Source: Isoetes taiwanensis
Taxonomy: Eukaryota > Streptophyta > Lycopodiopsida > Isoetales > Isoetaceae
DNA length: 64,000 nucleotides
Reading direction: 5' to 3'
Assembly (NCBI GenBank): GCA_021234155.1
Contig: JAJEKV010000001.1
Span: 186,001-250,000, forward strand
In this document: positions 17,532 to 36,324 of the stretch, in pieces
Numbering within the stretch: position 1 is the first letter of the stretch
Layout: every line of letters begins with the position of its first letter
Position numbers and translations under genes: made by a program
The notes under the pieces: model-generated
Told to the model about the DNA's origin: nothing
What the model saw: the letters and a program-made list of their open reading frames with translations, nothing else
Databases searched by the model: none

Positions 17532-17639
17532 CAGGGATAGGTTCTGTACGTACGAAATTCAAATTCCTGACGTATAAAGTTAAAAAATACGTATTTTTAA
17601 TAAAATACGTATATAACGTATTTAAAGGTCGCCGGCCGG

Positions 17640-17900
17640 AAAAAAAAAATTCGCGTACGCGAAACCTTCATATTTACGTACGCGAAGATTTTTTCGCGTA
17701 CGGGAAACACGTAGTTTTGCCTTGCAAAATTCAAATCTGAGTTTTCAGACGTCTGGTGCGAAACTTGATTTCGCGTCTGCTGAAAAAATTTTTATGCGTC
17801 GCAATACGGATATTTTCGCGTGGCAAGCAAACCGACGCGGTGTTCAAGCGTTACCGCGGTTTAGCGAGTTTCGTCAGACGCTTTTCGCGTCTGTGAAGTT
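17640..17900. repeat. hAT left subterminal repeat region
   Basis: It contains TCGCGTCTGC (17771-17780), TCGCGTCTG (17885-17893) and several CGCGTACGCGAA-like palindromes near 17650-17700. The words TCGCGTCTGC and GTCTGCTGAAAAAA recur near the right end (35985-36155). Subterminal repeats are typical transposase-binding sites in hAT elements. Confidence 0.7.
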
Positions 17901-18909
17901 TTTATAAATATGCGGCGCGGGGATTCAGTTTTTGGGCCGCAAAGAAGGTATCTTCTGTGCCCAACCTTCCAATTTGCCCCTCAAAAACATTTTTTTTTAT
18001 TTTTCTTAGTTTTTAGGTTTTTTTTTTTTTGTTGTTTTTATAGGTAGGCCAGGTTAGGTCCTTGATTAGGCCCTCGCTTTGTTGCCCCCATAAGGGGGGG
18101 CATAACGATGGTGAACGCCTTGTTCTGTGGGCTGATCTTGGCCTATTTTAGGGAAAAAAAAAAAAATAATTTAAGACAAATGATAATTTAAGACCAAAAT
18201 AAAAAATAAAAAATAAAAGAAACAAAAAATAAATAAATTTTGTTGCCTTCCCTTAAACGACAACTCTAGTACCAATTAGGTTTAGTGCTTTTTTAGGGTT
18301 TCGTGTTGCCAAGAGCGTAGGCATGCCCCTTGCCTGGTATTGCCGCATTTATTTGCGCCATGCCGAGGGTGGGTGGCACTGCTGAAGTTTAAGGCAACTA
18401 GGGTCTCCCCTTATTAAGAAGTATAACCCTCGCCTGACGCCGTTGTTGGCCTTGGTCACGCGGTGTCGAAAGGTGTGCGTTGTACTCTTATTAAGGGTTA
18501 CGAGAATGTTTTATTAATTCACACCCTAGTTCCTGATGGTGTTGTTGATGAAAGTCCGACACTAATATAGGAACTGGCGTATGTTTTAATAAGCATTCGA
18601 TTGGTCTCGTCTTTTGAAAAAGCGCGACCTGGGACAAGTGCAATGCATTTTAAACTTGCTAGCCTCGCATTTTGGCAGTAGCTGGGCTATAGATCATAAA
18701 TCGTGTTTTGGTCCTTTCATTTGTTACCCTATCCTTGGCCTTGCACATACATACTTATGAACCAATTAAAATTTACTAGTAATAGGATAAAATGTTAGGG
18801 TCTTAGCGTAGGAAGCGTAAAATTAGCGTTTTGTTTTGGTTAAAGTGAGTTGATTTACCCTCATATGCTAAGCACTAAGTTGAAAGTTTTATCTTTGCTT
18901 GACTTATAG
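17901..18909. other. Non-coding leader of the kinase gene inside the hAT
   Basis: No ORF of note; it contains poly-T and poly-A tracts. A TTATAG|G sequence just before 18910 could be a 3' splice site, so the first part of the kinase transcript may be an untranslated exon plus intron. Confidence 0.35.
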
Positions 18910-20671
18910 GTGTTGCTTTTGTCATTTGCGTATTGTCGTGGAGTCCCATTTTGCTATCTAGCTAGACAATCCCTTAAAACAAGCAGTATGACTTCAGAAG
19001 AGAGAGCGGAAGTTAACTCACAACCAAATGTGGCATTAGTGTCTCAGATAGAGCCGCAATCAGTAGAGGCATTGGCGTCTCAAACAGAGGCTACAGAGCT
19101 GCAACCTGAGTCATCTTCTGCAGCACTGCCGCGTAGAAAAAGAAGTAGACCACAACAAGCATGGTCTACTTTGAGACCAGATTTCATGAACTGGTTGTGT
19201 AATCGGCTGTGCAATGCCTCAGCTCAGGATTTGGAATTGATTACCAACAGCGAGGAAGGATGGCTAGACTACCATGCAGGGCTGGTAAAAGATGTCGAGA
19301 GGGCTTTTAAGCTTCGAATGATGGAGCTAGAGCCTGAAAAGAGTGAGCAAGAGAGGTATACATGGATAGTGGGTAATATTAGCCGCACTACCGGCAATAT
19401 GATCACAGAAGTTGCAAATTTGAGTAGTCATCGCTTGAGGCTAGAGCTGAAAGAAAAAGCCAGCACATGGAATGCGGCGTTAAGAAAGGGTGCAAACCAT
19501 AAAAGCCAAACGTCCTGGTGAGACAGATAGGGAGTGGGAAGCTCGTAGAAGAGTAGATGCCAAGACTACTTGGTTTGCCAAAGTAGATTCATCACAAATA
19601 ATAAACAGACAACGAATTGGTTCTGGTTCATATGGCGCAGTGTATAAGTGCAATATTTTAAGGTCTAGTTTTATTAAGGATGAACCTTATTGTGAAAAAC
19701 TTCAACATAATAATTTTCAGCCAAGTACAGAACCCAATAAGTTAGTGGAAGCTATGTTGAAGAACATGAGGGAGTCTGGAATGCAAGTTAGGCATGGGTG
19801 TATAATACGCTGCATTGGTAGCACAACCGGCCTAGAAAGACAAGGCTTAATTTTCCCTTTTTGGAATGGAGGTTCGTTGGCAACCTTCTTTATAAGTCAT
19901 GGGTCCAATGCCTTTGCAGAGCTTGCATTTAAGAAGTTAGGAGCTGTCCCCAGGGTTGAGATGGACTTGAGGCTGTTTGAGAAGCGCATAAAGAAAGAAT
20001 TGTTTGTTGCCTCTAGGGTTGGGGACTTAGCAATATCATTCTGTAGCGGGCTACGAAAACTCCATCAAGAAAGATATTTGCATATGGACTTGCATCCGGG
20101 CAATATATTGCTCCATTTTGATTATGGAAAGGAGAAGGGATGTATTGATCCTCAGGCTATATACATTGGCATTTGTGATTGGGGTGAATCCAGGTTGATC
20201 GGCGAGACAGTGGAGGTAAAACGATGGCATTACAAGGGTTTGGATGGCGAAGGTAAGAAAAGAATTGAGATGGAAAGGGCCACGCATCCATATATGCATG
20301 ATGATCTTTTTTTTGGTAGTGGCTCGAAGACAGTGCTTGCAAGGGTTGACTTTGATTTACACGGGGCAGCGTACATTGTCTACTACTTAGCTGACTTTGC
20401 TAGTAAGCACTCCTACATGGAGTCAAAAGGAAACTTGGAGCAGCAAGGCAAGCATCGGAGAATGTGCGACTATTTGAAACATTGCGTTGAGTCGCCAATG
20501 AGAGACAAAACACAAAAATTTGATATGGCCCAGCTACTTGACACCATGCGGAGCAGTTTTCATTGCTCTCCAATTCCGTGCACGAGGCCACAATTGGAAT
20601 CAGATTGGATTCTTCAACTTGGCCAGGGTGGCGACGATGCATTAGACCAAGCTGGTCCTAGTCACGCCTAG
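18910..20671 (+). CDS. Protein kinase-like gene carried by the hAT (one frameshift)
   Basis: Two ORFs overlap by 32 bases in different frames: 18910-19521 (203 residues; the likely start is the internal Met at 18988) and 19490-20671 (393 residues). They probably form one gene with an indel near 19490. The first part is basic and helical. The second has a kinase fold: glycine loop GSGSYGAVYK, a possible beta-3 Lys in SFIKDE, catalytic loop HMDLHPGNILL (Met for the usual Arg) and DWGES where DFG is expected. No clear APE motif is visible. The Asp and Asn needed for catalysis are present, so activity is possible but unproven. Substrate unknown. The second ORF is 393 codons without a lesion, unlike its decayed surroundings. 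Confidence 0.7.
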
Positions 20672-20939
20672 CGTGCATATTCTATTATTCACACGACCAT
20701 AAATTTACATTCAAACATCCTTGTATTACATAATATTCCAAATAAATTCATTAAACACTTGTTTGATGCTATTTGAGAAATTATTGTCCATGTGTGTAGC
20801 TTAGCTCTTCTTTTCGTGTGTTTTTTGTGTTATTTATTCTGTGTTTTTTTATATGTCGCAGCTAACGAAAATTATAAAGACAAGAAGTCAAAGCATACCT
20901 ATACAAGTCAGCGCACCTATAGAAGTCAGCACTATAATT
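20672..20939. other. Spacer between the kinase and RING-like genes
   Basis: No ORF; AT-rich, with scattered T-rich tracts that could serve the 3' end of the kinase transcript. Confidence 0.4.
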
Positions 20940-22245
20940 ATGTCTCACGAACAGGATGACGAATCTCCTCCACACAACGTGGATACATCAGAGTAGCCGG
21001 GCCTGGGTCAGCATGATTTTTCGGTACCCTCGAATTTGAGGACCCCCTCTCCTTGGCAGCAAGGCGTGGAGAACAAGCTTGAAATGTCAGCTGCTCGGCA
21101 AATGGAGAGAGCAACAGCACATGCAAGCGAATGAGTATCGCGACGGGCCGAGTTAAGAAGGTCATTCGCGATGGATGAAGTTTCAAAGAGGGATAATTGC
21201 ACCATCACGAGGTGCATAATGTAGCCGGGCGAGGCAGGGGCCAGCTATTGTCCGCATGGAGCGCGGACTCACGACGGCGTAATCACAAATTTGGACAAGA
21301 ATGAGTTTGAAAGAGAGTGGCCTAGTAGGCGGGGTAAGTATAAGGCTCACGAGTGCAAGATTGATGTGGTTCGAGCAAAAGCAGTCGAACGTCATGTCCA
21401 AGTGAAGGGACATTTACCCCACAACGGTGAGTTTAGTAAGAATTTTGTGCAGCAAGTATACTACGAGCTTGTGAAGGAAGTGCCCGTAAATTATGGGAGT
21501 AGAAAATGGAGGCAAGCCAACTTTTGGAGGTGGCAAGGGTAGCCGCGGTTGGAGCCGTGAATGACCTTGTGGATATTCGAGCCCAATTGGAGAATGAGAG
21601 AAGTCGTAACCCTAACACTTTCCGAAGAGAATATTCGCTTGAAGGACCGTGCCGATGGGTATGACAAGATGGCCGCTGAATTAAACGACACTAAACGGCA
21701 ACTAGCGGCATTGAACAGAGAGGCAACGGTCCTCAGGGAAAACAACGATCACTTGCGCAATTTGACCAGATCGTTAGACTCTGACCCTTTTAGGGTGACT
21801 TCGGAGCAGTCGATATCATATCTCCCTCGCGAGTATTTGTATGAGAGCCAGTGGGAAGAGCTAAAGGTTGCTGATTTCAGACATTGCCAATTGTGTGGTG
21901 CTGACACAGGTGGGCTGGTACACTCTAGGGTGTGGGCATCGTATGCACATGCGATGTGTTCTTGATTGGATGTTGCAAAGCCGCTTCTGTCCAATGCAAG
22001 GTGGATGGATTTTTCCTGAGTTATAATATGCCATATTAAATATGCAAGGTCGCATGCCAGCTCTGCCACAACTTGTCGCTCGCAGGAGGGATGGGCAGAT
22101 GCACACATGTGAGAGTTATCGTGAGATGGAATTGTGGAGGGGAGTGGAGGAGCCGCGTGAAGGAGAGGCAGTGCCAGACATTAACCAATTCCTACCACCA
22201 CCTCCAGGGCCGCAGGGTGATTGGGTTGACCCAAATGACCAATGA
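20940..22245 (+). pseudogene. Coiled-coil and RING-H2-like gene carried by the hAT (frameshifted)
   Basis: Segments in different frames read MSHEQDDESPPH at 20940; a basic block (21291-21542); a heptad-rich helix (21561-21800: KMAAELNDTKRQLAALNREA); then CQLCGADTG followed, after a frame change near 21915, by GCGHRMHMRCVLDW and FCPMQ. The spacing C-x2-C ... C-x-H-x2-H-x2-C ... C-P is that of a RING-H2 finger, lacking its last Cys as read. A short GT-AG interval (about 21998-22046, ATGCAAG|GT at both edges) may be an intron, after which the frame continues with a proline-rich tail to a stop at 22245. RING proteins are usually ubiquitin ligases; that role here is inference. Confidence 0.5.
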
Positions 22246-22285
22246 AAATGAGATATTAAATTTTGAGACAGATTAAATTTTGACG

Positions 22286-22405
22286 TGTATCATTTTGTGA
22301 ATGGATAATAACATTCAGAACCAAAATATTTGGGCCAACAATGCCTGTATCATTTTGTGAATGGATAATAAGGTTCAAAACCAAAATATTTGGGCCAACA
22401 ATGCC
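22286..22405. repeat. Tandem duplication, 60-base unit
   Basis: TGTATCATTTTGTGAATGG begins at 22286 and again at 22346. The two 60-base copies end in GGGCCAACAATGCC and differ at a few positions. It lies between the RING-like gene and the foldback array. Confidence 0.9.
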
Positions 22406-22481
22406 TTTGACATTTGGACCTCTTGTGTTTGACGAGTAAAGGCATCGAGACTTCCCAATCTCTTTTATCCTAGCTTAGTCT

Positions 22482-22587
22482 CTTTTGTTTGTCCTGTTTG
22501 ATGTATCTAATTTGCCCCCTAGGATGAGGTTGCTCACTCATTTTAGATGGCGAATTAGATACATCAAGCAGGAAACTCAAAAAGGGA
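22482..22587. repeat. Foldback A1, pre-miRNA-like
   Basis: The left arm around 22493-22516 (GTTTGATGTATCTAATTTGC) pairs with 22549-22572. The two differences in 24 bases are both G:U-compatible, and pairing continues inward through the GGATGAG/CTCATTTT ends to a loop of about 8 bases. Outer pairing extends into the TCTTTTG/CAAAAAGG flanks. Confidence 0.8.
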
Positions 22588-22611
22588 GTACGCCAAGAGC
22601 GCGACCCTCTT

Positions 22612-22894
22612 GAATGGTTGTCAGCTCACCAGCCTTATGTTCTCCGCGGCAAACAATATAGACTTCTCGAAATTCTTGTTATCGCCTTTAAAAAGAGCGA
22701 GCTTTGCTCTGACTCTCTTTTGGGTGTCTCTGTGTCAATGTATCTTAGATACTTTGCTAGGTTATATTACACAAAGACGCCCCAAATGGGGGTCGGAGCA
22801 AAAATCGTTCGTTCTAGAGGAGGTTACAAGGCTTTTGAGTACTCTATTTTTATTGTGGCTGCGGATGATATCAGGCTAGTGGTTGCTTGCGATT
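22612..22894. repeat. Foldback B1, long hairpin
   Basis: Arms of roughly 120 bases. Outer blocks TCACCAGCCTTATG / AGGCTAGTGG and CCGCGGC / GCTGCGG, then GAGCGAGCTTTGCTC / GGAGCAAAAATCGTTC, and inner GTGTCTCTGTGT / ACACAAAGACGC. The loop is about 35 bases. The plus strand is open across the whole hairpin (22618-22923), probably by chance. Pairing is imperfect, with bulges, as in an evolved miRNA precursor or an old inverted duplication. Confidence 0.75.
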
Positions 22895-22932
22895 CCGTGG
22901 GGTCATTAGATGTTAGTGATTGATGAGTTCAG

Positions 22933-23048
22933 GCATCGAGACTTCCCAATCTTTCTTTCCCCTCCTTTTTGGGCAATGTAGCTTAGTTTACATGCTAAGT
23001 TCCATTGTCCAAAGAGGGGTGAAAGCAAGGCTTGGGAAGTCTCGATGC
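22933..23048. repeat. Foldback C1, pre-miRNA-like
   Basis: GCATCGAGACTTCCCAA at 22933 is the perfect reverse complement of TTGGGAAGTCTCGATGC ending at 23048. Pairing continues with few bulges through TTTCCCCTC/GAGGGGTGAAA to a loop near 22990. Total 116 bases. Confidence 0.85.
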
Positions 23049-23111
23049 TTGCACTCAGGAGGTCGATTTGGGAATTCGCGATGCCATGACTCTTGATATT
23101 CATGAGTTCAA

Positions 23112-23230
23112 GCATCGAGACTTCCCCATTTTTCTTTCCCCCACCTCTTTGGGCAATGTAGCTTAGTTTAAATGCTAAGTTCCATTATCCAGAGAGGCGG
23201 GTGAAAGTAAAGATTGGGACGTCTCGATGC
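23112..23230. repeat. Foldback C2, second copy of C1
   Basis: GCATCGAGACTTCCCCA (23112) pairs with the 3' arm ending GTCTCGATGC (23230). It shares the loop sequence AATGTAGCTTAGTTTA with C1 but differs at several arm positions, where complementarity is largely kept. Total 119 bases. Confidence 0.8.
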
Positions 23231-23270
23231 TTGCACTCAGGATGGTTACTGTCATCTCTTTCATCCTGGC

Positions 23271-23390
23271 TTAGTCTCTTTTGCTTGTCCTGTTTATTGT
23301 ATCTAAAGTGCCCCCTGGGATGAGATCACTCGCTCATTTTAGGGGGCACTTTAGATATATATAAACAGGAACATCGAAAAGAGAGTAAAA
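23271..23390. repeat. Foldback A2, second copy of A1
   Basis: The left arm 23289-23324 (core TCTAAAGTGCCCCCTGGGAT) pairs with 23333-23369 (core TTTTAGGGGGCACTTTAGAT). The outer TAGTCTCTTTTG block pairs with GAAAAGAGAGTAAA. The arm sequence has changed from A1 (AAAGTG for AATTTG), with the matching change on the other arm, so the hairpin is conserved rather than the sequence. Confidence 0.85.
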
Positions 23391-23410
23391 AGCCTGGAGC
23401 GTGACCCTCT

Positions 23411-23920
23411 TGAATGAATGGTTGTCAACTCACCAGGCTTGATATTGTTCGCGGCAAACAATATAGACTTCTCGAAATTCTTGTTACCTCCTTTAGAAAG
23501 AGCGAGCTTTGCTCTGACTCTCTTTTGTAGTCTCTCTATGTCAATGTAGCTTAGTTACTTTGCTAGGTTATATTACACAAAGAGACTCAAAATGGGAGCC
23601 AGAGCAAAAATCGTTCGTTTTAGAGGTGCAAGTTCTCTTATGCAAGTTGCTATGACGTCAGAAGCGGTAGCGTACCCTAATTTCAAGCCAAAGTGGTGCC
23701 TGGGCATTGTCCATCTATATAGCGGTTGTTAGGCACCAAATCATGGAACATCCTAACTCTTGCTATTGATGGAGAACCTTGAGCATCACTATGACTTGAA
23801 ATTAGAGGACGCGTCCCCTTCGACGTCGTGGTGGATTGTATAAGGACAGGTAACAAGGTTTTTGAGTACTCTATTATTGTGGCCGCGGATAATACAAGCC
23901 TGGTGGTTGCTTGCTATTCT
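23411..23920. repeat. Foldback B2, second copy of B1, interrupted by D
   Basis: The left arm and loop (23411-23625) and the distal right arm (about 23848-23920) repeat B1 almost word for word. They are split at the AGAGG/AGGTAACAAGG point of the right arm by about 220 bases holding foldback D. Confidence 0.75.
23637..23844. repeat. Foldback D, inserted in B2
   Basis: CTTATGCAAG...GACGTC on the left pairs with GACGTC...GTATAAG on the right. The block CTAATTTCAAGCCAAAGTGG pairs with CATCACTATGACTTGAAATT. A smaller nested hairpin GGTGCCT/AGGCACC lies inside. It is absent from B1, so it arrived after the B duplication. Confidence 0.75.
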
Positions 23921-23940
23921 GTGGGTTTATTAGAGATTCT

Positions 23941-24156
23941 ATGGATAGGTAAGGCATAACTCCGGCACGCCAAATCGGCATTTGAATGCCATCAGGACCT
24001 ATAATTTGTACCTCCATTCCTTTGGGTGGCACCTGCCATGTAAACCTATTTGGTATTCAGAGCATGTGCAACCCAAAGGAATAGAGTACAGATTATAGGT
24101 CCTGATGGCATTCAAATCCCAATTTGGCGTACCGGAGTTATGCCTTACCTATCCAT
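23941..24156. repeat. Foldback E, near-perfect long hairpin
   Basis: Arms of about 86 bases begin and end with ATGGATAGGTAAGGCATAAC and its reverse complement. Only a handful of mismatches separate the arms along blocks such as GAATGCCATCAGGACCTATA and ATTCCTTTGGGT. The loop is about 44 bases. The high identity of the arms means a recent inverted duplication or selection for pairing. Confidence 0.9.
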
Positions 24157-24387
24157 TGGGTGGGATGATGTGGAACATGTATCTTGTGACCCCTCTTCAA
24201 TATCAGACTCATCTCATCATACATAGAAAGAACCATCATACATGAAAGAACCATCAAAACATATAGAAGACAAAAACTTATAACAAAAAACTTTACTTTT
24301 TATTAATAGTGTCAGGGACGGTTACAATAGTTTAAAGATCCTCATGAATGGTTACAATAGACTGAAGATACTCATCACATCATCTTT
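24157..24387. other. Spacer between hairpin array and transposase 3' end
   Basis: No ORF. It contains a short repeat (AGAAAGAACCATCATACAT / TGAAAGAACCATCAAAACAT) and probably the 3' end of the convergent transposase transcript. Confidence 0.4.
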
Positions 24388-25608
24388 CTATGCAGCACCT
24401 TCCTCATCAGTTTCATCATTCGGAGTTCCATCCTCTTCTGCCTGGTGACCTAGGTTCAACCTCCGATGACCCTTTCCTTTGGTGCAACGTCTTTGAGACA
24501 TGTTTCTTCTAGCACGTTCTTTGTTTGTCAAGGTAAAGCACGAAGGAGAGTCTGATGGATCACGTAGGCCAGTCAAATTCTCAACTAGATTGCTCGGACC
24601 TGGCCTATCTGTGTCGGACGCCTCGGTATCTTCGCTGTCGGCTGACTCGTCTGAGAATATGGCTTGGCCTATATCATCTTCGTCGTCAACGAAATGGGTG
24701 CGTTGAATGTCCTCATCAACATGGTTTGCAGCATTTATTGCAAGCATCTTGTCCTCACCGCCTCTTCGCCCCTCTTCCACTTCGAATCGCATCCATGAAA
24801 GGAAACCCAGAGCTTATCGATTGAGATGTACCACCGCTGCGATTCAATAGCCGCCAATTGGAGAAGTTGTATACAAGTTTGTCTGCCTTCTTATGTAGCA
24901 AGCGATTGCGGGTGACACTGTGTATATACTTATAGGCACTCCAATTCCTCTCACTTGCACTATTGGAGGATACCAAGGAGAGGATAGTCATTGCAAGGGC
25001 CTATAACGTATCAGTAACCTGTCCATGGGCTTGCCACCATGCATAAGATTCTATATTTGGTTCCTTTTTATGACTCTCCATTGCATCGTGAAGCTCCTCA
25101 TCCGCCCACCGGCCCACTCGTGTTCTCAGATTGCTTAACTCCAAATGAAGGTCTTATAGTCCGAGCTGTTCGGATAATACATTTTTGCAACCTTCTTCAA
25201 CTTAACCCATCACTTCTTTATCCAGATGCTGGTCCATATCGTGGGTTGTGTGGGTCTAAGGCATGTGCGCACCATGAAGATCATTGTAGGACTTCTTCCA
25301 TCGCTCATTGAAGCATCTCGAGCAAAGTCTTTGCACGCTTAGCATTGTCAAATGGTGCATTGGGGCCATCACGTTCTAGAAAGGATTGAATAGAGTGCCA
25401 ACACCTCCAGACTTCGAAGAATCAAGGGTTTTGATGGCATGACAAACAGGTTGCATGCACCTCACAACATTTTTTTTCACCTTTCCAAAATGTCTCCCGC
25501 CCAAGCATTTCTCGGCTGGGCAAATGCTTGTTGTCGGTGTTTGGCGGAATTTTTCCCTTTCTGCCTCTTTTCCCATTCAAAAAACTCCGTATGATTGAAG
25601 GTTGAGAT
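24388..25608 (-). pseudogene. hAT transposase, C-terminal part
   Basis: The minus strand encodes a hAT dimerisation region: ILSLVSSNSASERNWSAYKY followed by IHSVTRNRLLHKKADKLVYN and FSNWRLL (24991-24830). This is the conserved C-terminal block that lets hAT transposases dimerise. Upstream, 25600-25000 has further transposase sequence with stops in several frames, including YAWWQAHGQ before the dimerisation block. A frame change near 24775 leads into an acidic tail (DEDDIGQAIFSDESADSEDT) ending at 24388. Element 2 splits the gene; the N-terminal half resumes beyond 34217. Confidence 0.8.
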
Positions 25609-25613
25609 AATCC
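25609..25613. repeat. Element 2 target site duplication, left
   Basis: AATCC here is repeated exactly at 34217-34221, next to the outer ends of the two LTRs. Five bases is the usual duplication for Ty3/gypsy elements. Confidence 0.95.
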
Positions 25614-26168
25614 TGTTTGGGGTCTGGGTTCGGGAACTCCTAGAAGACAGCCCTCTGTGAGGACCCGTGGATCTAACAGGAGAATCCGGGGGACTATGTC
25701 ACGCGGGATTTGCAAGAAGAGAACAAGAAGAAGAAAACAGAACAAAGAGAACAATGAGAGGAAAATGATAAGCTTCCTTGATATCAATGATGAACATACA
25801 TGAGCTCTCGCGAATCGAGAGAAGACCAAAAGAGACAAGACTCAAAACTCATCTAGCCTTCATGCGCTAGCTCTACTCATATATATAGTACAATGGCCTT
25901 TGGCCCAATATAGACACTCTGACTGATCTCGGTGCTGACTCCTGAAAGGAGGCCTGATTTGCGTGAATGCTAGCGGTGCCTCTTGAGGTGCTCGATCACG
26001 TTGACCGGGCGGTGATGGCCCGGCCACTTGTCCGGCGCCCCCTTTGGGCTGCCGCTTGGTCTTCTCATGGGGCCTTTGATGATCAACCCGGGTTGATTTG
26101 GGGATCCTTGTTCTTGACCTGGTCCGTCAGAGGCATGAATAGTCCTGTACCAGAGGCATGGACTAACA
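25614..26168 (-). repeat. 3' LTR of element 2
   Basis: 555 bases, TGTTTGGGGTC...GACTAACA on the plus strand. The adjoining CTCCCCCACCAAACGAC (26169 onward) reads on the minus strand as a G-rich polypurine tract, TTTGGTGGGGGAG, ending at the LTR, as expected for the second-strand primer. It pairs with 33661-34216; the two differ by scattered substitutions and small indels. Confidence 0.95.
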
Positions 26169-26499: not shown

Positions 26500-28318
26500 T
26501 CAAGGAGCCGAGCAGGATGCATTTGAGAGCAGCACGTAAAACCAGCTTGAAGGTGGATCAAGGATCCGGTGAGGTGGCGGCGATTCTCGCAAGAAGGTGT
26601 CAAGACCATGAAGAGCATCGCCAGGCGTTGCCAACCACGCCATTGGCGGCGTAGATCCAATTGATGGTATTATCAAGGGTGGCACCATCCTCCCAATTGA
26701 GCGGCGAACAAAAATCGGGATCCCACCGAGATCCGTCGAGGTGGAGTCCGGCCAAAGATGGCCATCCATGACCTTGGTCCAAAAGGGAGATGCCAATCAG
26801 ATGTCGGGGAACCCGGGGGCGTGGAGGGACACCCAGGGAAGCATAGGGAGAGGGAACCATGCCCGTGGGCATGGGTTGCTTGGCCCGAGCCCCGCTCCCG
26901 AATTCATCGACAAGGGCCGGATCAAGAGCCTTGCACCAATGATCCCGCATGAGGCAGAGAGTTGAGAGTTGATGAGGGCTATCCCGGCCGTGGGGACCGC
27001 CTTGCTATCCGAAAAGCACGTAATTGATTGTAACCTTCGAGGTGCCGCATATAAACTTGTGCATAGGGAAGATCCCCGAATGTCCCGTGATACTTCCTTA
27101 TCCGCTGCAAAAAAGACTTCCGCTTGCCGAGAGGTAAATGATGTGCAAGCTCGCATGTACTCTTGATGAAGAGCGTGTGTCCGAGCATGATCAGCCGAAT
27201 AGGGGTTGTTATCCCCAAGCAACCATTGAAGGGTGGGGTCACCCCGAAAGTTCTGTTGTGGCCCATCCCAAATGATAGAAATCATGAAAAATGTAAGCCA
27301 TGGGCTGAACAACTCAAGGTGATGAAATCCGGATCTTCAGAAAGGAATGAGATCAAAGACCAAAAGGGCACAAAGATAAACCTTTGTCTTCAATAGAGTT
27401 CGCCAAATCCAAGAAAATCTGGGTCGCGGCGCTAGGAACATCCACGGACCATCAGCCCCATGCCACTTCGGAAGAAAGAGGTGGCGGCAGCAACCACATA
27501 ATCCGAGATAACAGAAGGAACTGAAAAATCAACAAAGTGCAGGTTGCTAACGATGGTAACATAGCCAAGCCAAGTTTGGTCCGAGCCTCATCAGGCCGGA
27601 CTAAATAGCGTGTTGTAGCCGTTGTTCGAGGTCACGGATCCCGTGGTCCTTTTCTAACGGCGTATGGATCGGGTCACGGACCCGCTTCTCGAAAGTGTTG
27701 ACCTATGAGGTGGATTGCCCAGAGCATTGAGTCGGGCACGGCAATCTCGGCCATCAAGAATTTTTTCTGTTTCTGAACCTCTCGTAGTTGATCTTGGAGA
27801 GATGTGAGCTGAGAGGTTAAAGAGGCAATTTGAGCCGCCACGCCGCAAGGGTTTTGAACTTGAGTGTCAGAATTGTCACAAAGCTCCGAGTACAAGGCAT
27901 CGAGCTTAGCAATATCTTTGTCCTTCTCACCCGTGAGGGTATCTTTGGACTTGTTTTGCTCCAATAAGTCCTGAATTGTGGTTTGGAGCTGAGCCCTTGA
28001 TCTGCAAGTAGGTTTGTCTGATCCTGTGCACTTTTGAGATCTATACGGGCCTGTAAGAGAGCCCCGTGCTTTTCTTGAAGTTGGGCTTCCAAAGTTTGAA
28101 CTTGTGCAGTTGCAGCTTGAAGGTCACAAAGAACCACATCTGAGGCCTCCAGGTCGCTTTGAACCCCATTCGAAAAGAGCTTCTTGGGATTCTTGTAACT
28201 TGAGAACATCGCCGTGAGCATCCCCGCCGATATCGATACAAAAAGCCGACGAGGGTGCTGTGGTGGTGGAGCATGCGGTTGCCTTGTTTGCGATGTTTGT
28301 GAGACATGGTGTGAACTG
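26500..28318 (-). pseudogene. Post-pol accessory ORF of element 2 (5' truncated)
   Basis: A coiled-coil stretch (28221-27670: TAQVQTLEAQLQEKHGALLQ) is followed by a C-terminal part (about 27480-26500) with LNWEDGATLDNTINWIYAAN. Both match the accessory ORF of element 3 (40604-38017). The N-terminal part is removed by the deletion that also cut integrase. Minor ORFs carry the remaining fragments in several frames. The function is unknown; its retention in two copies suggests it is a regular part of the family. Confidence 0.65.
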
Positions 28319-30330
28319 GAATGCCTTGAGGATAGTAAGGTGTGCTCTTGTGATGATATATCGAGATAATCCGTCGCTTCTTAATGGTATGATTGATAAA
28401 ATGGACACCACGATCACCGACCAGCCCGTGGAGTAGCCAAATCGCTGTGATAATTTGTTGATAAAGGACCCCGGGCGTGGTTTGCCGCAAAGCTGTTGTC
28501 CGGAAGTAAGCTTCCGCCCATTTGGTAGCATAGTCAAGAGAACTGGGAATGTAGCGGCACGGGTGTGCTGCCGCAGAGGATTGATGGGTCCCACAAAATC
28601 CATCCCCCATTTGCTGAAGGAAGTGGCGCGGGCGACCGGCGCCAAGGGAAGAGCGCCACGGGCGTGGGCCGCCCCACACGCCGCAAGCATCACACGCGCG
28701 GGCGTGGAGCGCCTTTTGAAGAGCGTGGACCAAAAATAACCAGCAAGAAGGATTTTGGCGTGCCGTGGTGTCACCCCCCGAAAAATGACCACCACCTAGC
28801 CCTTGATGAGCTTCTGACAATATCCGGGACTTCATGAGGTAGAACACAAATGCGGAAAGGATTGTATCCTTACCCTTTTTGTAAAGATGTCCCGCAACCA
28901 TGGTGTAGTCACGGACCTCGTGGAGAAAACCGGTGTCGACGGATTGTCGCTTGGCGAGAGAGCGTGTCATCCTCCGCTGGAAGTGCGCCTGTGAGGAGAT
29001 ACTGCTGAAAGTCGTGGTACCAATGTGGTGTTGCCGTGACCAAAAAAAGTTGAGCGTCGGGAAAGGCGTCTGAGACTCCAAAGGAGGGATCATCCGTGGA
29101 TGCGTGAAAGATAATCTGGGACAACATGAGATTTGCCTCGCCTTGTGAACAATTTCAAAAGGTGCAAATTCTGCGTATGAGGACCCAACGAGCAATGCGC
29201 CCATGGGCGGATTTGTTGATCAAATAAAGAAGTGCTTGGTGGTCAACAAAGAATTTGATCTGACTGCCCAAAAGATAGTGACGGAAGCGTTGGACACAGA
29301 AAATTAGACCCAAAGCTTCACGCTCTGTGGCAGAGTAGTTGCGCTCAGCAGAATTGAGTTTTCTGGGCGGCGTGTCGGGTTTGGTTTGTCGATTAATGCG
29401 CATCATATTCTTGAGAAAGAACGGCCCAATAGCAAACGCCGGTGACATCGACATGAACATGAAAGGGCTTGTCCCATTGAGGAGGAACAAGAACCGGGCC
29501 CGAGTGAGCAAAAGCTTCAACTGTTGAAAGCGACTTCCGCCTGGAATTCCAAGCCCGTGGATTCATTACCGTGAGTTTATGAATGGGATCCGCAATGGTC
29601 GCTAGTCCAGAATGAAGGTGGAGTAATAATTGACCTTACCCAGAAAGAGCGTGTCTCCTTGATATTGGCCGGTGCTTGAGCCTTGAGCACACAATCGATT
29701 TTGGCGTGATCCGTGGTGATACCGCTTTCGGACAACGTGTCCTAACAACACACCCGGGTGACACAAAGGTGCATTTCTCCGGATTGAGACTAATGCCTAC
29801 TCATCACATTTCTCGAAAAGACGAAGTTCCAATTTATCCAAATGGTCACCAATGGAACTCAGAGGCGAGAAGTCATCTTGAAAAAATTTGGTAAGAAGGG
29901 ATTTTCCTTCATAAAATCATGAAAAACTGAGAGCATGATGCTGGAAACGTGGATGGAGAGTTTGATAAGCCAAAAGGAACCACCTTGTAGGCAAAAGTGC
30001 CCCATAGGGTGGTGAAAGTAGTCTTGAGTTGATCGATTCTTTGATGGAGATCCGATTGTAGCCGTAAAACCATCCATGAAGGAGTACATCTCATGTCCAA
30101 AGAACCTCTTCCAAACTTGGTCCGTGAAGGAAGTGGAAAATGATCACGCCCGCGGCTCCGATTGAGTTTTCGGTAGTCCACGCAAAACGCCGGATCTTAC
30201 CATTGTGTTTGAGGGCAATGACGATGGGGCTCACCCATTCGTAATGTTTGACCTCATAGATCAAACCTCGCAGCAAGGAGTTTGTCAATTTCGCCTTGAC
30301 GCCGATCACGGTAATTATGGTTGAGCCGCA
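28319..30330 (-). pseudogene. pol region of element 2: RT, RNase H, partial integrase
   Basis: RT fragments at 30310-29760 include KHNGKIR, FMDGF near the first catalytic Asp, and LWGTFAYKVVPFGLSNSPST. RNase H is well preserved at 29520-29155 (EREALGLIFCVQRFRHYLLG and FFVDHQALLYLINKSAHGRI). The integrase zinc domain and core lie at 29000-28330 (GDGFCGTHQ, DRGVHFINHTIK, HHKSTPYYPQG) and stop abruptly at the deletion junction. Frames change repeatedly. Confidence 0.85.
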
Positions 30331-31790
30331 TCGTCGCTGCTAAAACCGACCGCATCCGATTTGGTAGGAATGGTGAGTTCCCCAAGGTTTTGTTGATTCC
30401 CCAAAGATCTCCTCAGCTCCGTGCCAAAATGTGTTTGAACTTTTTGAAGAGTGTGACGGCCCCTGCACGATAGGGGGTCAAGATTTGCGCCAGAAGGCGA
30501 CATGCCGATTGTTGCCTACGTGACACTATCTCGACTTTCAGAGTCCAATGTGGAGTATCACTTCGCGGTCCCGACAATGTGCGCGTGGAGGTTGGAGCAT
30601 AACAGATGCGTGGCACTCTGCGTGGTGAAAAGAGAGGTTGCCGAGTTTCATCAAGCGCAGGTTGCTTCATGACAAAGATGTACATCGGGGGTAAGCCGCA
30701 GGAGATTCTACATCCGAAAAGTGATCAACCCGCTGGATTCGATTGCAAAGAGCCGTAGGGGTCGAGCAAAGCCGCCCACACTCGGTCCTGATCAAGAGTC
30801 ATTTCTCCCCAAGGATCAGATATTCGGGTAGGATGACAGAGGTAGACCTGGCGGTGGAGCCCGAACTTGATAGATATTCCGGGCTTCCTCGTAATCGTGT
30901 CGGAGAGAGCGCTTCAAAGATTGTCGAATCAAAATGATCTTACCAGCTTCCAAGTCCATAGTGGCATTAAGGTGATCATCCGTGATGACTAACCGATCCG
31001 CGGGCCCAAGAATGGATACTCTTGGCCCCGGAGAAAAAAGGTCCGTCGACCAACATTTCATAATCACCGGATCTTCCCCTTAGCTTTCCAAACTCCAAAT
31101 TCCAAAGGGAATCGGAGGTCACCAATGTTGATGTGAAGAAGAGGCGTGACGCCTTGAGGTCTCGTGATATGGCCATTAGCCAATTTGATGTCATATGGGG
31201 CACGATAGAGTTCTTTGATGCCCATTTATTTGCGGAGTTTATCCGCTATGAGATTAACCGCGCTACCTCCGCCAATTTGAACATGGTTGACTTGTTTGAT
31301 TGCCCACCGTGGCATGGACCGTGGGTGTAGAGGTAGCAAAAGCCCCAACCAAGACAATGGGAGTGGTAACCGGTCCTTGAGAGCGTGATAGAGTTTCAAA
31401 TTGTTGCCAAACTTAAAGGAATTTTGATTTTGGCCAGCTCCTCTTGGAGTTCCAAAGGCACATGAGAAAAAGGATCTGGCCGGATCCACGGGTGCCGGAG
31501 GCGTGGTAATGAAGCGAAGAACGCCTTTTGAGTAGGTCAACCTCGCAAAATATTGGGATATGTCCGAGAGCGTGGAGGTTGAGATGTGGAAGGTGTATCT
31601 TGTCTTTGTTGAGCTCGTGGTGGCATGAACGTTCGCCAACGCGCCCTTATGCAAATTTTGCATGAGATTCAAAAAATGCTTTGGCGAACTTTAGGCATGA
31701 CATTTGGCATGAGTTTCTCCAAGTCGCAAAAGTGAACCTTTTGTCTTCCTCATGAGGAATGGTGTCAACCGCAGCGCGGTTCGCGCCATT
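30331..31790 (-). pseudogene. Protease and linker region of element 2
   Basis: The minus-strand frame at 31672-31226 holds VNHVQIGGGSAVNLIADKLR. The active-site Asp position of D-G-G-S in element 1 reads Gly here, so the protease would be inactive as read. The linker to RT (31200-30330) has stretches such as SRDLKASRLFFTSTLVTSDS in broken frames. Confidence 0.7.
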
Positions 31791-31799
31791 AGGAATAAT

Positions 31800-33640
31800 G
31801 ATTAAGGGACGCGATGCCCCGGTCCGGGCGGAAACCAAACCAACCCAATTTGATGGCCGGACCGAGGATTAAGAGCCCTAAAAATTTCTTCCCCGCGGCT
31901 TGTTGATCCATCCGAGATTGATTGGCGTGAGCTGGTTGATAACGCGATTGCCGAGGCGCCAGGGTGGCTTCTTAAGAACAGACGCGCCTTGTTTGCCATT
32001 AGCAATCCGTGAGTTGGTAAGCCGTGAGGCTGACCGATGTGGTCCGATTGGTGCCGTGAAGCCGCACCAACTTGCGGAAGTTGAGGACACGCCGCGGGTG
32101 GTATGACCCCATTCTTGGACGCGATAACATCGAGCTTTAGAAGGATCAAAAGGAGGACGGGTTGGGTCCTCGCTGTTGCCCTCGCTGCTGATAGAGTTGA
32201 TTGGGTTGCGCCTCGCAGCGGGTTGCCGCCGATAGTGCGATTGTTGCCGCGCGTGTTGTTTGCACTTGATAAACCAAATTTGTTGCGAAAGGTGTTGGAT
32301 GAGTGCGAAAGTGCACTCTTCCGGGGCATGATTGCACATGTTGCATCTTTTACAATGAGGCGGGCCATTGGTCGAAGTTGCACTCATTTGCCAAGTGGCC
32401 TTGGTATTTGCGCATATGGCACCGATCCGATCACTACCGGATTGGCGCAGTTGAGGCCGGGATGCCAGCCTATGGAACCATGACGGGTGGAATGAAAGGG
32501 AGCTCTTGAAGAGCCACGCCACGGAGGAAACATTGATCGAAAGTGATTGACAAGGTCGATAGCCCCGCTCCAAAGTCTTCTGGACGCAGTATTCACCATG
32601 AGTCCGATAGCTGGAGGAAGTCCTTGGAGAAACCGCACCAAGATCCGCTCGTTGGGTACTCCTTGAGTTTGCCGAGCGCACGTGAAGGCGACCGCAAAAT
32701 CCCGCATCTGGGGCTCTTGTTGAAGGTTATTGAGTTGCTTGAGATGAAGTTGATCATCATCCGTGGTCCCATAGTGAGAAAGAAAAGCAGCCTCTCATTT
32801 CTGACCAATCTTGTTTCCAAAGGGCTTTTGTTGGACATGAGCCATTGATGAGGAGAGCCACGCAGAAGGTGGTGGAAAAAGATGTGGAATTTCAGTTGAG
32901 GTTGCGCATGACCATTCGTGACAGCCGAGCCTCAAATTCTTCCATGTGGGCCTCGAGCACTTTGGTCTAAAGATTTGCGTTTAGTGTTGCCAAAGGTGGG
33001 ATAAGTCGGTTTAAGGGTCCGGAAGGTAGAGGTGAAAGTGCTTGGCAGACAGAACAAAGTAGTGATTATAATGAGGTGGAGTTGAAGGTGGTATAGTGCC
33101 CCGGCGGACCCCTCGGCGAAGGGGTGATCAAGTTGAGGTAATCAAGGTGCCTCGAGCATTGGTTTTGAGGTCGGTAAGGTTGTAAACAGGAAGAGTGGTG
33201 GGAAATGTAGGGAAAGGAAATTCCCCGGTAGGCTTAAAAGAGACATGTGGATATCCCCGCCACCCGGGAGATGATGGTTGTGAAGGAAGAGGCGTATGGC
33301 CCGAAGAGTGATGAATGTAGGCATGGTCGGGGGTATGAAAGCAGTAAGGTTGAGAAGGTTGAGCTTGATAGGGCTCCCCGAGCAGTGATGAGGTGATCGA
33401 GGTCGGGAGCAATGTTTGCACGCTTTGGGGCGGGAACTCTGACGAGACAGACACGAGGGGTGGGTGGCGCCGATCGAGCCCGGTGACCGTAATGTGGCCG
33501 CCTCAATGTCGTGTAGCATCCCATACATGTCGCTGCAACAACCCCTTCGGCGATGATGTCGCCCCAAGCGAGATGCCGCTCGAGAAAGGAGTTCTTCCGG
33601 GCGAAGTTTCCTGACGCATTACGCGACAAAGAAATGAGGA
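31800..33640 (-). pseudogene. gag region of element 2
   Basis: The Pro/Ser/His-rich N-terminal part is at 33630-33130. A capsid-like segment lies near 32880-32600. Zinc knuckles lie near 32440-32290 (NGPPHCKRCNMCNHAPEEC), with a third knuckle remnant (CYRVQEWGHTTRG) near 32150-32090. The order matches element 1, with many indels. Confidence 0.8.
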
Positions 33641-33660
33641 TCGAATCAGACCCGCGATGT

Positions 33661-34216
33661 TGTTTGGGGTCCGGTTCGAACTCCCCGAAGACACTCCTGG
33701 AGGACCCGTGGATCTAACAGAGAATTCGGGAAACTATGTCACGCTGGGATTTGCAAGAAGAGAACAAGAAGAAGAAAACAGAACAAAGAGAACAATGAGA
33801 GGAAAATGATAAGCTTCCTTGATATCAATGATGAACATACATGAGCTCTCGCAATCGAGAGAAGACTGAAAAGAGACAAGACTCAAAACTCATCTAGCCT
33901 TCATGTGCTAGCTCTACTCATATATATAGTACAATGGCCTTTGGCCCAATATAGACACTGACTGATCTCGGTGCCGACTCCCGGAAGGAGGCCCGATTTG
34001 CAGGAATGCCGGGCGGTGCCTCTTGAGGTGCTCAGGATCACATGGACGCTGGGGCGTGTGATGGCCCGCCACTTGTCCGAGCCTCCTTTTGGGCAGCTCG
34101 CTTGGTCTTCATGCGGGGCCTTTGATGACTGACCCGTGGTTGACTGTGGATCCTTGTTCTTGACCTGGTCCGTCGTATGCATGAATAGTCCTGTACCAGG
34201 AGGCACAGGACTAACA
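33661..34216 (-). repeat. 5' LTR of element 2
   Basis: 556 bases, starting TGTTAGTCC in element orientation at 34216. A likely TATA box lies at 33921-33929 (plus-strand TATATATAG). The primer-binding site should lie just inside, below 33661, but I could not match it to a particular tRNA. Confidence 0.95.
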
Positions 34217-34221
34217 AATCC
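34217..34221. repeat. Element 2 target site duplication, right
   Basis: AATCC, identical to 25609-25613. Confidence 0.95.
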
Positions 34222-35420
34222 AATCATTTATACTTTAAGCACTCTTCAAGACAATTGGAACCAAATCGGGTTTGCCTGTGGATTCATGAGTGCTAGGGTC
34301 TTCGACGCAATGACTTGTAAATGGCATAAATTGCCGGCTTCTTTGTGATGAATTTTACAAGCCGACGACTTTCGAATGGGATCTTTGAACCACGCGTGTC
34401 GTGGAGAACCAATCCTTGAGCAATACGCTCAGGCAATGGCATTGGCAGCTAGTAGCGTGCAACCCGAAATTCGAGACTCCAATAATTCACCCGCTAGCTT
34501 GCAATTAGACGTTATCCATTACAACCTGAAATATTCTCTTCGGTCCAAAACTTTCTATCACGGCTTTGTTTTCTTTGAAAAATCCAATCCCCACGGTCAC
34601 TTGGTCGGTTTTTGGTTTCTACTTGTTTTCAAAATACTTCACCCCCTGGATACACGGTCATGAAGTTTATAAGATGGTCCTTGTTTACATTGCTCCAACC
34701 ATCAGTCACTAGTGAAGCTGGCCTGGCTTCAGTCACACGACACAACTTCATCTCTACACTCTCGACCATTTTTCCGTGTATTTCATCAACCATTTTATTG
34801 TTGGCATGCTTGTATGAAGGCCACCTAAAAGCCGGCCCTGCTTTGGCAACTTCTTGGAAGGCTTCTTTCATTGCTTTGCGCTCCAAAATATGTGGAGACC
34901 ACCCGGCATATAAAAATGCATGCCTCTACAACCTTCAATTGCGTCTTCTTCAGTTGCTCTGATGTTAAGCAATGGTCAACCCTTTGTTGCTTCGTCTGTC
35001 TCTCCACTATTTCAATTGTCTCTATCATTCTCTGCTCTCCCGTGCTTATACCTATTGACCCTAGTCCACCCTCTGATTAGTATGCTGTCCCAACTCCAAC
35101 AGGGGGGGTGGTATAGTTATCTTCGTCTTCTCCTGCCCGGCACTGCTGTTGAGTATCCGTAACTCGTCTTTTTCTCGTATTATTCTTCGTTTTGCGTATC
35201 ACATCTAGTCAAGACAATCTTTCAATGGCATCCTTTCGCAAGTCAGCAGATGCAGTACAAGTCGCGACACCGACGTCTCGTTCACGTAAGATGTGAGCTC
35301 GAATTCTTGTTGCAGAACCATTTACCGATGAGTATCCACAAAACACACATTCCCACTCATGTACGCCAAACTCTTTCACAAAATCTCATTCCGGGCCTCT
35401 TCTCCGACCGCAACTCGAAC
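34222..35420 (-). pseudogene. hAT transposase, N-terminal part (BED finger and DUF659)
   Basis: From about 35400 downward the minus strand reads a BED-type zinc finger: WECVFCGY ... RIRAHILRERDVGVATC, giving C-x2-C ... H ... C after a conserved Trp. A middle region (35028-34830) has KKTQLKVVEACIF. DUF659 follows at 34886-34629 with TDGWSNVNKDHLINFMTVYP, the family's hallmark T/S-DGW ... INF segment. Frames shift between blocks. Element 2 interrupts downstream; the dimerisation block is at 24830-24991. BED plus DUF659 plus hAT dimerisation is the full layout of many plant hAT transposases, so this was once the autonomous gene. Confidence 0.78.
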
Positions 35421-35930
35421 TCTTAACGACCATGTGGATGGGTGCAGGTCCCGCGGGCCACAAGCACGCACGCCAGCAGCCCTCGCACCTCTAGAGGTGG
35501 ATGCATGGTCACTGCCCACGCACCCAGCAGGTAGATGCGCGACCAAGAGCCATTGCTCGGACCTCACGACAATGTCTCGGTAATCCAATCCTTGATTACA
35601 CGAACTAAAGGAAGACGTATATATGCAAAGGAGCAAGCTCACAATGCATATGTTACGTCGACGTTCCGTACGAGAATTAAGGGGGGTTGGATGGGACCCT
35701 ATAGGATATTCTATGGAAGCAGATGCGAACCCAAGGCTGGAAACCACTGGGACGGAGTAAACTCACATTCCAATATCCAACGTCGCTCGGTTTCGATTTA
35801 AAAAACGACACCTCAAAGGCAAATTGTTTCCCAAGGAGTATTTTGACTCAACCTCGGCAATCAACGCTTGAGGTGAATTCTAGGGCTAATCACGTTTTTC
35901 TTAATAGTGCCACAAAACAAAGCCAAAACA
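35421..35930. other. Right internal region of the hAT, no gene
   Basis: No supported gene; it presumably holds the transposase promoter, since the transposase reads leftward from about 35400. Confidence 0.4.
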
Positions 35931-35984
35931 GAGGCGCAAATATTTTTTTGCTTAGTAAATTGGGAAAAAAAAAATCGAAGATTT

Positions 35985-36316
35985 TTTGCGTCTGCCAAAA
36001 CTAAGAACTGCGTCTGTGAACACTAAGAACCGCGTCGACGCGAATTTAAATTTTCGCGACGCGAAAAACAACTAGAACGCCGTCTGCTGAAAAAAATCTT
36101 CGCGTCTGCACGCCAAAATTGCTTCACACGCGATTTCAAAGGTTCGCGTCTGCGAAAAGTTTCGCCGTCGCGGTTTAGTTGTTTTCGCTGTCACGCGAAA
36201 AATTTCGATGCCGGAATTGTTTTTGCCGATTTTTTACGTTTTATACGGCAAATTTGTGTCGTATCATACAATTCATACGTATTTTGCATAAAACGTGCAG
36301 TATTGAACCTATCCCG
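35985..36316. repeat. hAT right subterminal repeats and terminal repeat
   Basis: Copies of GCGTCTGC-type words occur at 35988 onward, 36081 (CGTCTGCTGAAAAAA), 36101-36110 (CGCGTCTGCA) and 36144-36153 (TCGCGTCTGC). The first three resemble words at 17771-17893 in the same orientation. The element ends GAACCTATCCCG at 36316, the partner of the left CAGGGATAGGTTC with one base missing. Confidence 0.7.
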
Positions 36317-36324
36317 GTTTGCTT
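36317..36324. repeat. hAT target site duplication, right copy
   Basis: GTTTGCTT, matching 17524-17531. Confidence 0.9.

Follow-up and report, generated by a model that had tools for sequence, protein, structure and literature searches.

Accessory genes in DNA transposons

Plant hAT transposons of the Ac/Ds type have an 8-bp target site duplication (TSD), CAGGG-type ends, subterminal repeats, and a hAT transposase, which is the only protein that they encode. The element described here resembles Ac/Ds in all of these traits, with its 8-bp duplication, CAGGG-type ends, subterminal repeats, and transposase, and differs in carrying a kinase and a RING gene besides the transposase. Accessory genes under selection are unusual for hAT-class transposons, and no hAT element with a kinase and a RING gene was found in a literature search with most subscription papers outside its scope. 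Few DNA transposons have conserved accessory genes, and several of the described cases bear on how an element copes with host silencing, according to the available portions of two reports (PMC12730594, PMC6446971). IS3EU of rust fungi, as presented there, is a DNA transposon with an alpha-kinase and a TET/JBP dioxygenase; like the present element, it has a kinase gene that runs against the transposase gene and one additional accessory gene, but it belongs to another superfamily, lives in fungi, and has a 6-bp duplication and TAYGG ends, and its alpha-kinase and dioxygenase contrast with the Pkinase-type domain and RING found here (PMC12730594). The hAT7 elements share the hAT superfamily and the possession of an accessory gene, a TET/JBP dioxygenase, and differ in their 7-bp duplication, the kind of accessory gene, and their fungal hosts; the available part of the report describes no kinase, RING, or hairpin array in them (PMC12730594). 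VANDAL and MuDR, which are also DNA transposons of plants, carry accessory genes as well (mudrB, vanB, and vanC), VANC being an anti-silencing protein, but they belong to the Mutator superfamily, and their accessory proteins are not described as kinase or RING in the text available (PMC6446971). In Pack-TYPE elements, too, DNA transposon ends enclose coding sequence other than that of a transposase, but these elements are nonautonomous in the accessible part of the source, whereas transposase, kinase, and RING travel together under selection in the present family (PMC8903248).

Boundaries and insertion site of the element

The window, that is, the whole stretch of DNA analyzed, comprises 64,000 nt, and relatives were searched for in its source genome (1.66 Gb); copies fetched from this genome carry L-numbers. 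A hAT transposon occupies positions 17532 to 36316. It starts with CAGGGATAGGTTC, finishes with GAACCTATCCCG, and is flanked by two TSD copies, GTTTGCTT (17524 to 17531 and 36317 to 36324), that are identical at 8/8 positions. The left terminal region (17532 to 17940, plus strand) consists of the terminal inverted repeat (TIR) and TTCGCG-type subterminal repeats, and the right terminal region (35940 to 36316, plus strand) of subterminal repeats and the TIR. Counted on both strands, TTCGCG occurs seven times in the left and six times in the right terminal region, 3 times in 17941 to 25613, and 25 times in the whole window, which gives densities of 17 and 16 per kb at the two ends versus 0.39. 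A search of the window for the TIR (≤2 mismatches) returned five matches versus 1.31 expected, and the best two of these, one perfect and the other with 1 mismatch, are the ends of the element. Inverted ends, the complete TSD, and end-specific repeats thus bear out the original prediction that terminal repeats and an 8-base duplication delimit one element.

Family ends with their own TSDs recur elsewhere in the genome. The left end (query, 17532 to 18300) gave at least 66 matches, with the best 40 of 1808 candidates scored, and the copies ranking 1 to 19 and 21 after the window itself were fetched. The left TIR CAGGGATAGGTTC is present in 19 of these 20 copies, L022 having one change. The right end was reached in five, and in these the TSD is exact in L017, L020, L022, and L027 and matches at 7/8 positions in L023; four of the five have the right-end TIR GAACCTATCCCTG, with variants in L022 and the window. 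Both the 8-bp TSD and the short CAGGG-type TIR expected of hAT elements are therefore found. The element was inserted in a DUF7869 gene and interrupts it, the left part of the gene (profile positions 30 to 77) lying at 17393 to 17531 (plus strand; E = 7.8e-9, 35.8 bits; cut-off, 26) and the right part (profile positions 95 to 164) at 36366 to 36740 (plus strand; E = 1.7e-5, 24.9 bits, just under the cut-off of 26).

Transposase and state of the window copy

The transposase gene lies on the minus strand in two parts with broken frames, the C-terminal part with the dimerization region at 24388 to 25612 and the N-terminal part at 34222 to 35385. The domain composition previously proposed (BED, DUF659, and hAT dimerization) stands in part. 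Pfam Dimer_Tnp_hAT exceeds its cut-off of 21.4 bits in the window (21.6 bits, E = 2e-4) and in L030 (35.4 bits, E = 9.6e-9); DUF659, a region common in plant hAT elements, stays under its cut-off of 34.7 in both (19.0 bits, E = 1.2e-3, and 27.5 bits, E = 2.9e-6, respectively); and the Pfam search of the window and L030 transposases returned no BED match, the BED-like CxxC...H...C pattern in the N-terminal part being recognized by eye only.

The window transposase gene is interrupted because of the insertion of an LTR retrotransposon, of Ty3/gypsy type by eye (25614 to 34216, minus strand; TSD, AATCC), which is not part of the hAT. The divergence between its LTRs (K2P, 0.128) gives a rough date, as the LTR middles are near identical and the sides are not; the insertion is old. 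With its kinase, RING, and transposase genes all broken, the window copy is a dead relic. The surroundings of family members are rich in nested elements, such as this retrotransposon and a Helitron in L032.

Kinase and RING genes

The kinase gene of the window is split by a frameshifting deletion that parts its N-terminal part (18988 to 19521, plus strand) from the kinase domain (19484 to 20671, plus strand; 395 codons open); in L025 the two share one frame. The domain matches Pfam Pkinase over the cut-off (E = 1.1e-10) and PK_Tyr_Ser-Thr (E = 6.3e-10), which upholds the claim of a protein-kinase gene inside the element. Open frames of about 550 to 621 codons occur in diverged subfamilies (564 to 621 in L025, L029, L030, L031, and L032), and a substitution-only neutral simulation left 2 of 2000 frames open. 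The kinase Lys, the HxD Asp, the Asn, and the DxG Asp are conserved in 20/20 ORFs, which places the protein in the protein kinase superfamily, and each Gly of the glycine loop is kept in 18 to 19 of the 20. Among these ORFs, all open over >330 residues, dN/dS between the two deepest groups is 0.07 to 0.18 where dS is computable; among close copies it is mostly 0.2 to 0.7 and twice >1 (1.24 and 1.03), as would be expected if copies decay.

The coiled-coil/RING-H2-like gene (20940 to 22242, plus strand) has several frame breaks and stops in the window and is readable only across a frame break. It is open in L020, L021, L025, and L030, and the protein has 426 to 448 codons in L021, L030, and L031. 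The RING-like assignment holds on the open relatives, as L030 (23.7) and L021 (22.6) match zf-C3HC4 over its cut-off of 21.0. In all eight of the 11 ORFs that reach the finger, seven of the eight zinc ligands are present and the eighth Cys is missing, the last pair reading C-P-A-D, C-P-A-E, C-P-M-Q, C-P-T-M, C-P-T-A, or C-N-A-R; the full set of a RING-H2 E3 ligase (C-C, C-H, H-C, C-C) is thus incomplete. An Asp at the eighth ligand place is known from RBX1. Across the 11 ORFs, RING dN is 0.23 to 0.40 and dS is saturated or 2.81. Between deep subfamilies, kinase and RING together show dN of 0.20 to 0.40 with dS near or beyond saturation, and both proteins are under purifying selection.

Single-sequence and alignment searches of one protein collection found no kinase homologs outside the genome; this says little because the transposase drew no match in the same collection either, and the collection seems to hold no relatives of plant transposons. 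No relatives of the kinase or RING were found among viral contigs. In the PDB, the window kinase alone had no match, a four-sequence kinase alignment gave weak RAF/DYRK matches (E = 0.0013 to 0.0072), and the RING protein matched one E3 ligase (E = 0.0035). An AlphaFold model of the window kinase alone had a pLDDT of 39.5 and was set aside.

Distribution of the modules among genome copies

The family is a multicopy hAT of about 10 kb, full members of which hold three genes, with the kinase and RING genes running inward from the left end, the transposase running inward from the right, and the hairpin array lying where the genes converge. In MuDR, mudrA and mudrB are also convergent. The genome contains at least 105 scored places matching the kinase, at least 94 matching the RING gene, and at least 120 matching the transposase. 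Within 30 kb, at least 32 kinase-transposase pairs (0.46 expected), 29 RING-kinase pairs (0.36 expected), and 43 RING-transposase pairs (0.41 expected) occur, of which 29, 28, and 42, respectively, are in family order, and at least 14 loci have all three genes in order. This recurrence, together with the purifying selection on both proteins, supports the proposal that kinase, RING, and hairpins belong to the hAT and are not chance neighbors. A RING or kinase match was among those listed within 30 kb of 59 of the 120 transposase places listed, and transposase-only family members may exist; one transposase copy, C1034, has no kinase among the matches listed and a kinase piece of 103 residues at 68% (L047).

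Whether the cargo always accompanies the family ends receives a mixed answer. At a threshold of 25% within 10 kb of the left end, the kinase is present in 13, the RING gene in 12, the array in 11, the transposase N-terminal part in 7, and the right end in 5 of the 20 fetched copies, and some copies are without cargo. L009, L017, and L023 have the family left end and lack the kinase domain, but L009 keeps the RING gene and array, L017 the array and a RING tail, and L023 the kinase N terminus; because these other pieces are kept, the three look like deletion derivatives, and the cargo looks ancestral. L011, L014, L015, and L019 have no cargo within 10 kb of the left end, with a kinase match 11 to 19 kb on in the last three, and L025 contains a 740-bp derivative with both ends and no cargo. 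The description "cargo-loaded" therefore needs qualification, as the kinase and RING genes do belong to the element but look like stable family genes rather than a recent load.

Hairpin array and exchange between elements

A foldback array, as originally predicted, lies between the convergent genes (22425 to 24159). It comprises hairpins A1 (22483 to 22582; z = -12.9), B (22919 to 23060; z = -13.6), B' (23098 to 23242; z = -13.7), and A1' (23279 to 23379; z = -12.3), the primed ones being second copies; a weaker foldback (23655 to 23830); and a long foldback, I1 (23938 to 24159), with arms 94% complementary, all on the plus strand. Of five pieces folded singly, four thus reach z values of -12.3 to -13.7, and the I1 half-piece (first 150 bases folded with shuffles) reaches -4.3. 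Hairpin B occurs at 19 places in 12 of the 13 elements examined and the weaker foldback at 8 places in 8 of the 13. For 17500 to 36400, Rfam returned 14 matches with E values of 1 or less, and none of them, to a known miRNA family or otherwise, scored over the gathering threshold. Hairpin 21-mers had no match at 0 to 2 mismatches in six window stretches. The closest site, in the DUF7869 flank, had three mismatches and those in the other stretches had 4 or 5, compared with 5 or 6 in a single shuffle each, which is too little for calling a target.

In 200-base steps, the L030 and L020 arrays are 93 to 98% identical, versus 54% just to the left and 65% just to the right, and despite kinase genes about 68% alike; the array is near identical between diverged copies, being either exchanged or constrained. 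The L030 and L022 arrays align poorly (37 to 91% per step) because about half of the L022 array is missing. The L030 transposase has dS of 0.42 to 0.56 to four of five comparable copies and 0.94 to the fifth (tpN table, leaving out two fragments and the tpC group), versus kinase dS of ≥1.9 to window-type copies; therefore, element halves have been exchanged. These exchanged halves and the contrast between array and flanks are in keeping with an array that has no RNA role, being a palindromic repeat that gene conversion homogenizes among the elements, as is the lack of an Rfam family over the gathering score. Against this stand the strong folds formed by four of the five pieces and pairing that is mostly kept, with both-sides changes in 4/46 and 3/34 predicted pairs (the latter for A1 over 14 sequences; the B alignment covers 18 of 19 places, the other being truncated where its stretch ends), but conversion between hairpin arms also mimics compensatory change. 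The prospects of this explanation are about even.

Origin of the accessory genes

The kinase and RING genes travel with the element under purifying selection and probably encode accessory transposition proteins. Transduplication in the Pack-TYPE style, in which one element captured functionless host gene fragments, is known for plant DNA transposons from the available text of one source (PMC8903248), and the broken kinase and RING genes of the window would agree with it. It is hardly credible given the many copies in fixed order, the transposase in the same elements, the selection on both genes, and the open kinase frames of 550 to 621 codons in diverged subfamilies; a nonautonomous element with captured host fragments is not what was found. 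A composite, with kinase and RING as a separate mobile element nested in the hAT, would suit surroundings rich in nested elements, the L029 kinase, which has no other part of the element with it, and L031, which begins at the same inner point. This too is very improbable, as at least 14 loci have the three genes in the same order and orientation, L030 has the pair at full divergence with the same left TIR, and an unsystematic look revealed no inner boundary flanked by a duplication of its own.

Host adoption of the kinase in some lineages, with host selection explaining the low dN/dS, draws on L029, where an intact kinase lacks the left end, RING, array, and transposase and adjoins an unrelated ORF that is aspartic-protease-like by eye. 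It is nonetheless quite unlikely, because the low dN/dS extends over many dispersed copies, many of them near a transposase or RING gene, and the RING gene is likewise constrained. The idea that L029 and L031 arose as retrocopies found no support, as neither A nor T runs of ≥12 were present.

Possible functions and implications

If the kinase and RING genes are accessory transposition genes, they would have been kept because elements carrying both spread better. The most likely way would be protein modification, in which the kinase might phosphorylate, and the RING protein, acting as an E3 ligase, might ubiquitinate, either the transposase itself or host factors of silencing or repair. The hairpins would most likely be transcribed into small RNAs or serve as the joint where elements exchange halves. 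A further suggestion, that kinase, RING, and hairpin small RNAs form one counter-defense module against host silencing, in which silencing factors would be phosphorylated and ubiquitinated and their transcripts lowered, is rather doubtful; if true, a hAT would act toward plant silencing like a virus with suppressors. The mosaic L030 suggests a route for swapping accessory and transposase modules. For annotators, the warning is that dozens of kinase and RING gene copies here belong to transposons, and this plant hAT family, with its hairpin cluster and two conserved proteins that may modify other proteins, is a new, testable case.

Structure and decay of the window copy

The hAT copy at positions 17532 to 36316 of the window begins with CAGGGATAGGTTC at its left terminus, ends with GAACCTATCCCG at its right terminus, and is flanked on each side by GTTTGCTT, exactly the limits claimed in the original prediction. 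CCCTG forms the terminus in most family copies. A TTCGCG-type motif occurs 17.1 (left end) and 15.9 (right end) times per kb, compared with 0.39 in the whole window, and CpG reaches 108 and 101 per kb in the two ends, compared with 36; this joint richness ties both ends to one element. The host gene of the insertion is a DUF7869 gene, whose profile is matched by the left flank (profile positions 30 to 77) above the cut-off of 26 bits and by the right flank (profile positions 95 to 164) slightly below it, with 24.9 bits.

The transposase gene, on the minus strand, is split by a gypsy-type retrotransposon (type assigned by eye) at 25614 to 34216, which has TG...CA ends and an AATCC duplication and separates the N-terminal part, on its right, from the C-terminal part, on its left. 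Minus this insertion, the hAT element measures about 10.2 kb. The retrotransposon LTRs (25614 to 26168 and 33661 to 34216) diverge by a K2P distance of 0.128 over 546 aligned columns, and their near-identical middle and clearly less similar sides suggest partial conversion, which makes dating unsafe. The window hAT copy is dead, because its transposase reading contains many stops and frame changes, its RING gene contains several frame changes, and two gaps in its kinase gene, of 49 and 4 bases against three relatives, put the N-terminal part out of frame. The residue before the catalytic Lys is Glu in this kinase and Val in 18 of 20 kinase ORFs. Elsewhere in the window, related gypsy-type stretches (1 to 7332, 37026 to 45104, and 50709 to 53760) are 71 to 86% alike in blastn pieces, and their frames look broken; an L1-type LINE, recognized by eye at 58086 to 63616, keeps long open pieces of 456 and 370 codons.

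Cargo genes across the genome

Protein searches of the window's own genome (1.66 Gb, 1,110 contigs), which its element types suggest is that of a plant, gave 105 scored kinase places from 1,476 candidates, 120 transposase places from 1,678, and 94 RING places from 1,264. Among these scored places, 32 kinase-transposase pairs lie within 30 kb, 29 of them convergent in the family order; the corresponding numbers are 29 RING-kinase pairs (28 in order) and 43 RING-transposase pairs (42 in order), and 0.36 to 0.46 pairs would be expected if the genes were independent. All three genes occur in order at 14 loci. A RING or kinase gene is among the listed matches within 30 kb of 59 of the 120 transposase places; since only the best-scored candidates are listed, the other 61 do not show an absence of these genes. 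At one transposase place on contig C1034, where the kinase is not among the listed matches, a kinase piece at 68% identity was found, and a RING gene is listed.

The left 769 bp of the element has 66 matches in the genome (best 40 of 1,808 candidates scored). From 20 left-end copies (ranks 1 to 19 and 21 after the window itself), 10 kb was taken, and a module was counted as present when at least 25% of the window module lay inside. The kinase domain was present in 13/20, RING in 12/20, the hairpin array in 11/20, the N-terminal transposase in 7/20, and the right end in 5/20. Absences have several sources, namely, the 10-kb limit together with later insertions, and internal deletion. L014, L015, and L019 have a kinase match 11 to 19 kb further on in the same orientation; L009, L017, L023, and L027 (kinase kept) carry internal deletions; and L011, devoid of cargo modules within 10 kb, is assigned to neither source. 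All eight modules are at least partly present in L020 (9.75 kb; about half of the C-terminal transposase missing) and L022 (9.88 kb; about half of the array missing). A 740-bp derivative inside L025 has perfect ends and a ATGCATGG duplication, which indicates that short derivatives also moved. L014 and L019, about 28 kb apart on contig C1100, have the same 20 flanking bases at their left-end copies, which suggests local duplication after insertion.

Selection on the kinase and RING genes

Twenty kinase ORFs (the window ORF and 19 from 38 fetched loci, open over >330 query residues) were compared by the Nei-Gojobori method. For comparisons across the deepest split, which separates 13 ORFs from 7, dN ranges from 0.20 to 0.32, dS is 1.4 to 3.2 where computable, with many values beyond saturation, and dN/dS is 0.07 to 0.18 where dS is computable. 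Ratios between close copies are mostly 0.2 to 0.7, with two above 1 (1.24 and 1.03), as expected for copies decaying after insertion. When substitutions alone were simulated at 0.16 changes per site, roughly half of the raw window-L030 difference of 0.30, 2 of 2,000 frames stayed open. All 20 ORFs retain the catalytic Lys, HxD Asp, Asn, and DxG Asp.

Of 11 RING ORFs, those of L030 and L031 are separated from the remaining nine by a dN of 0.23 to 0.40, with dS saturated or 2.81. The finger is reached in eight of the 11, with seven ligands readable and the eighth Cys absent; RBX1 has Asp in place of the eighth Cys ligand.

Two loci show the kinase in other surroundings. L029 (C908:16246601-16256600) has an intact 596-codon kinase ORF adjoining an ORF that by eye resembles an aspartic protease; the left end, the RING gene, the array, and the transposase are all absent from the fetched 10 kb. 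Family homology in L029 begins immediately inside the terminal region, approximately where it also begins in L031, and the locus is possibly a solo or adopted kinase gene. In L032 (C941:1560400-1570399), a 1,417-codon open Helitron Rep/helicase frame (3646 to 7896; Pfam Helitron_like_N, 1.8e-34; PIF1, 6.4e-49) directly follows a family kinase.

The hairpin array and the L030 copy

The window array has the order A1-B-B'-A1', with further foldbacks. Of five pieces folded separately, four gave z values of -12.3 to -13.7, and the fifth, half of the long foldback, gave -4.3. Hairpin B occurs at 19 places in 12/13 elements and A1 at 14 places in 9/13. Across alignments of 18 B and 14 A1 places, pairing is mostly kept, and both sides changed in 4/46 (B) and 3/34 (A1) predicted pairs; many other pairs are invariant and hence uninformative on compensation.

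The L030 array has 284 matches in the genome (best 40 of 1,456 candidates scored). In 200-base steps with gaps, it is 93 to 98% identical to the L020 array, compared with 54% just to its left and 65% just to its right, and 77 to 94% identical to the window array. At the DNA level, the kinase genes of L030 and the window share about 68% identity. Against five comparable copies, the L030 transposase has a dS of 0.42 to 0.56 in four cases and 0.94 in the remaining one, well below that of the kinase. L030 is therefore a mosaic, as its array and transposase are much closer to other copies than its kinase is. Arrays are either swapped between subfamilies or under strong constraint. The subterminal motif of L030 (210 to 700) is, by eye, of its subfamily's TTCGCTTACGCGAA type, unlike the window type.

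Mobility and relation to known elements

A hAT transposase cuts at the element ends and leaves 8-bp duplications. Duplications of this type surround copies with cargo inside (the window copy, L020, L022, and L027). In the proposed mechanism, the left end would drive the kinase and RING genes, the transposase would be driven from the right end, and the two accessory proteins would act on proteins that limit transposition.

In fungal IS3EU elements with TET/JBP, an alpha-kinase gene is oriented opposite to the transposase and separated from it by the TET/JBP gene; TET/JBP is also carried by some hAT7 families of fungi (PMC12730594). Accessory genes are likewise described in VANDAL and MuDR elements, with VANC acting in anti-silencing (PMC6446971). 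No description of a hAT element with kinase and RING genes was found in searches of one open-licence literature collection, which is weak evidence of novelty. The original structural claim, a kinase, a RING-like gene, and hairpins inside one hAT element, stands. The transposon family is real and unusual, and it belongs with the DNA transposons that have conserved accessory genes.
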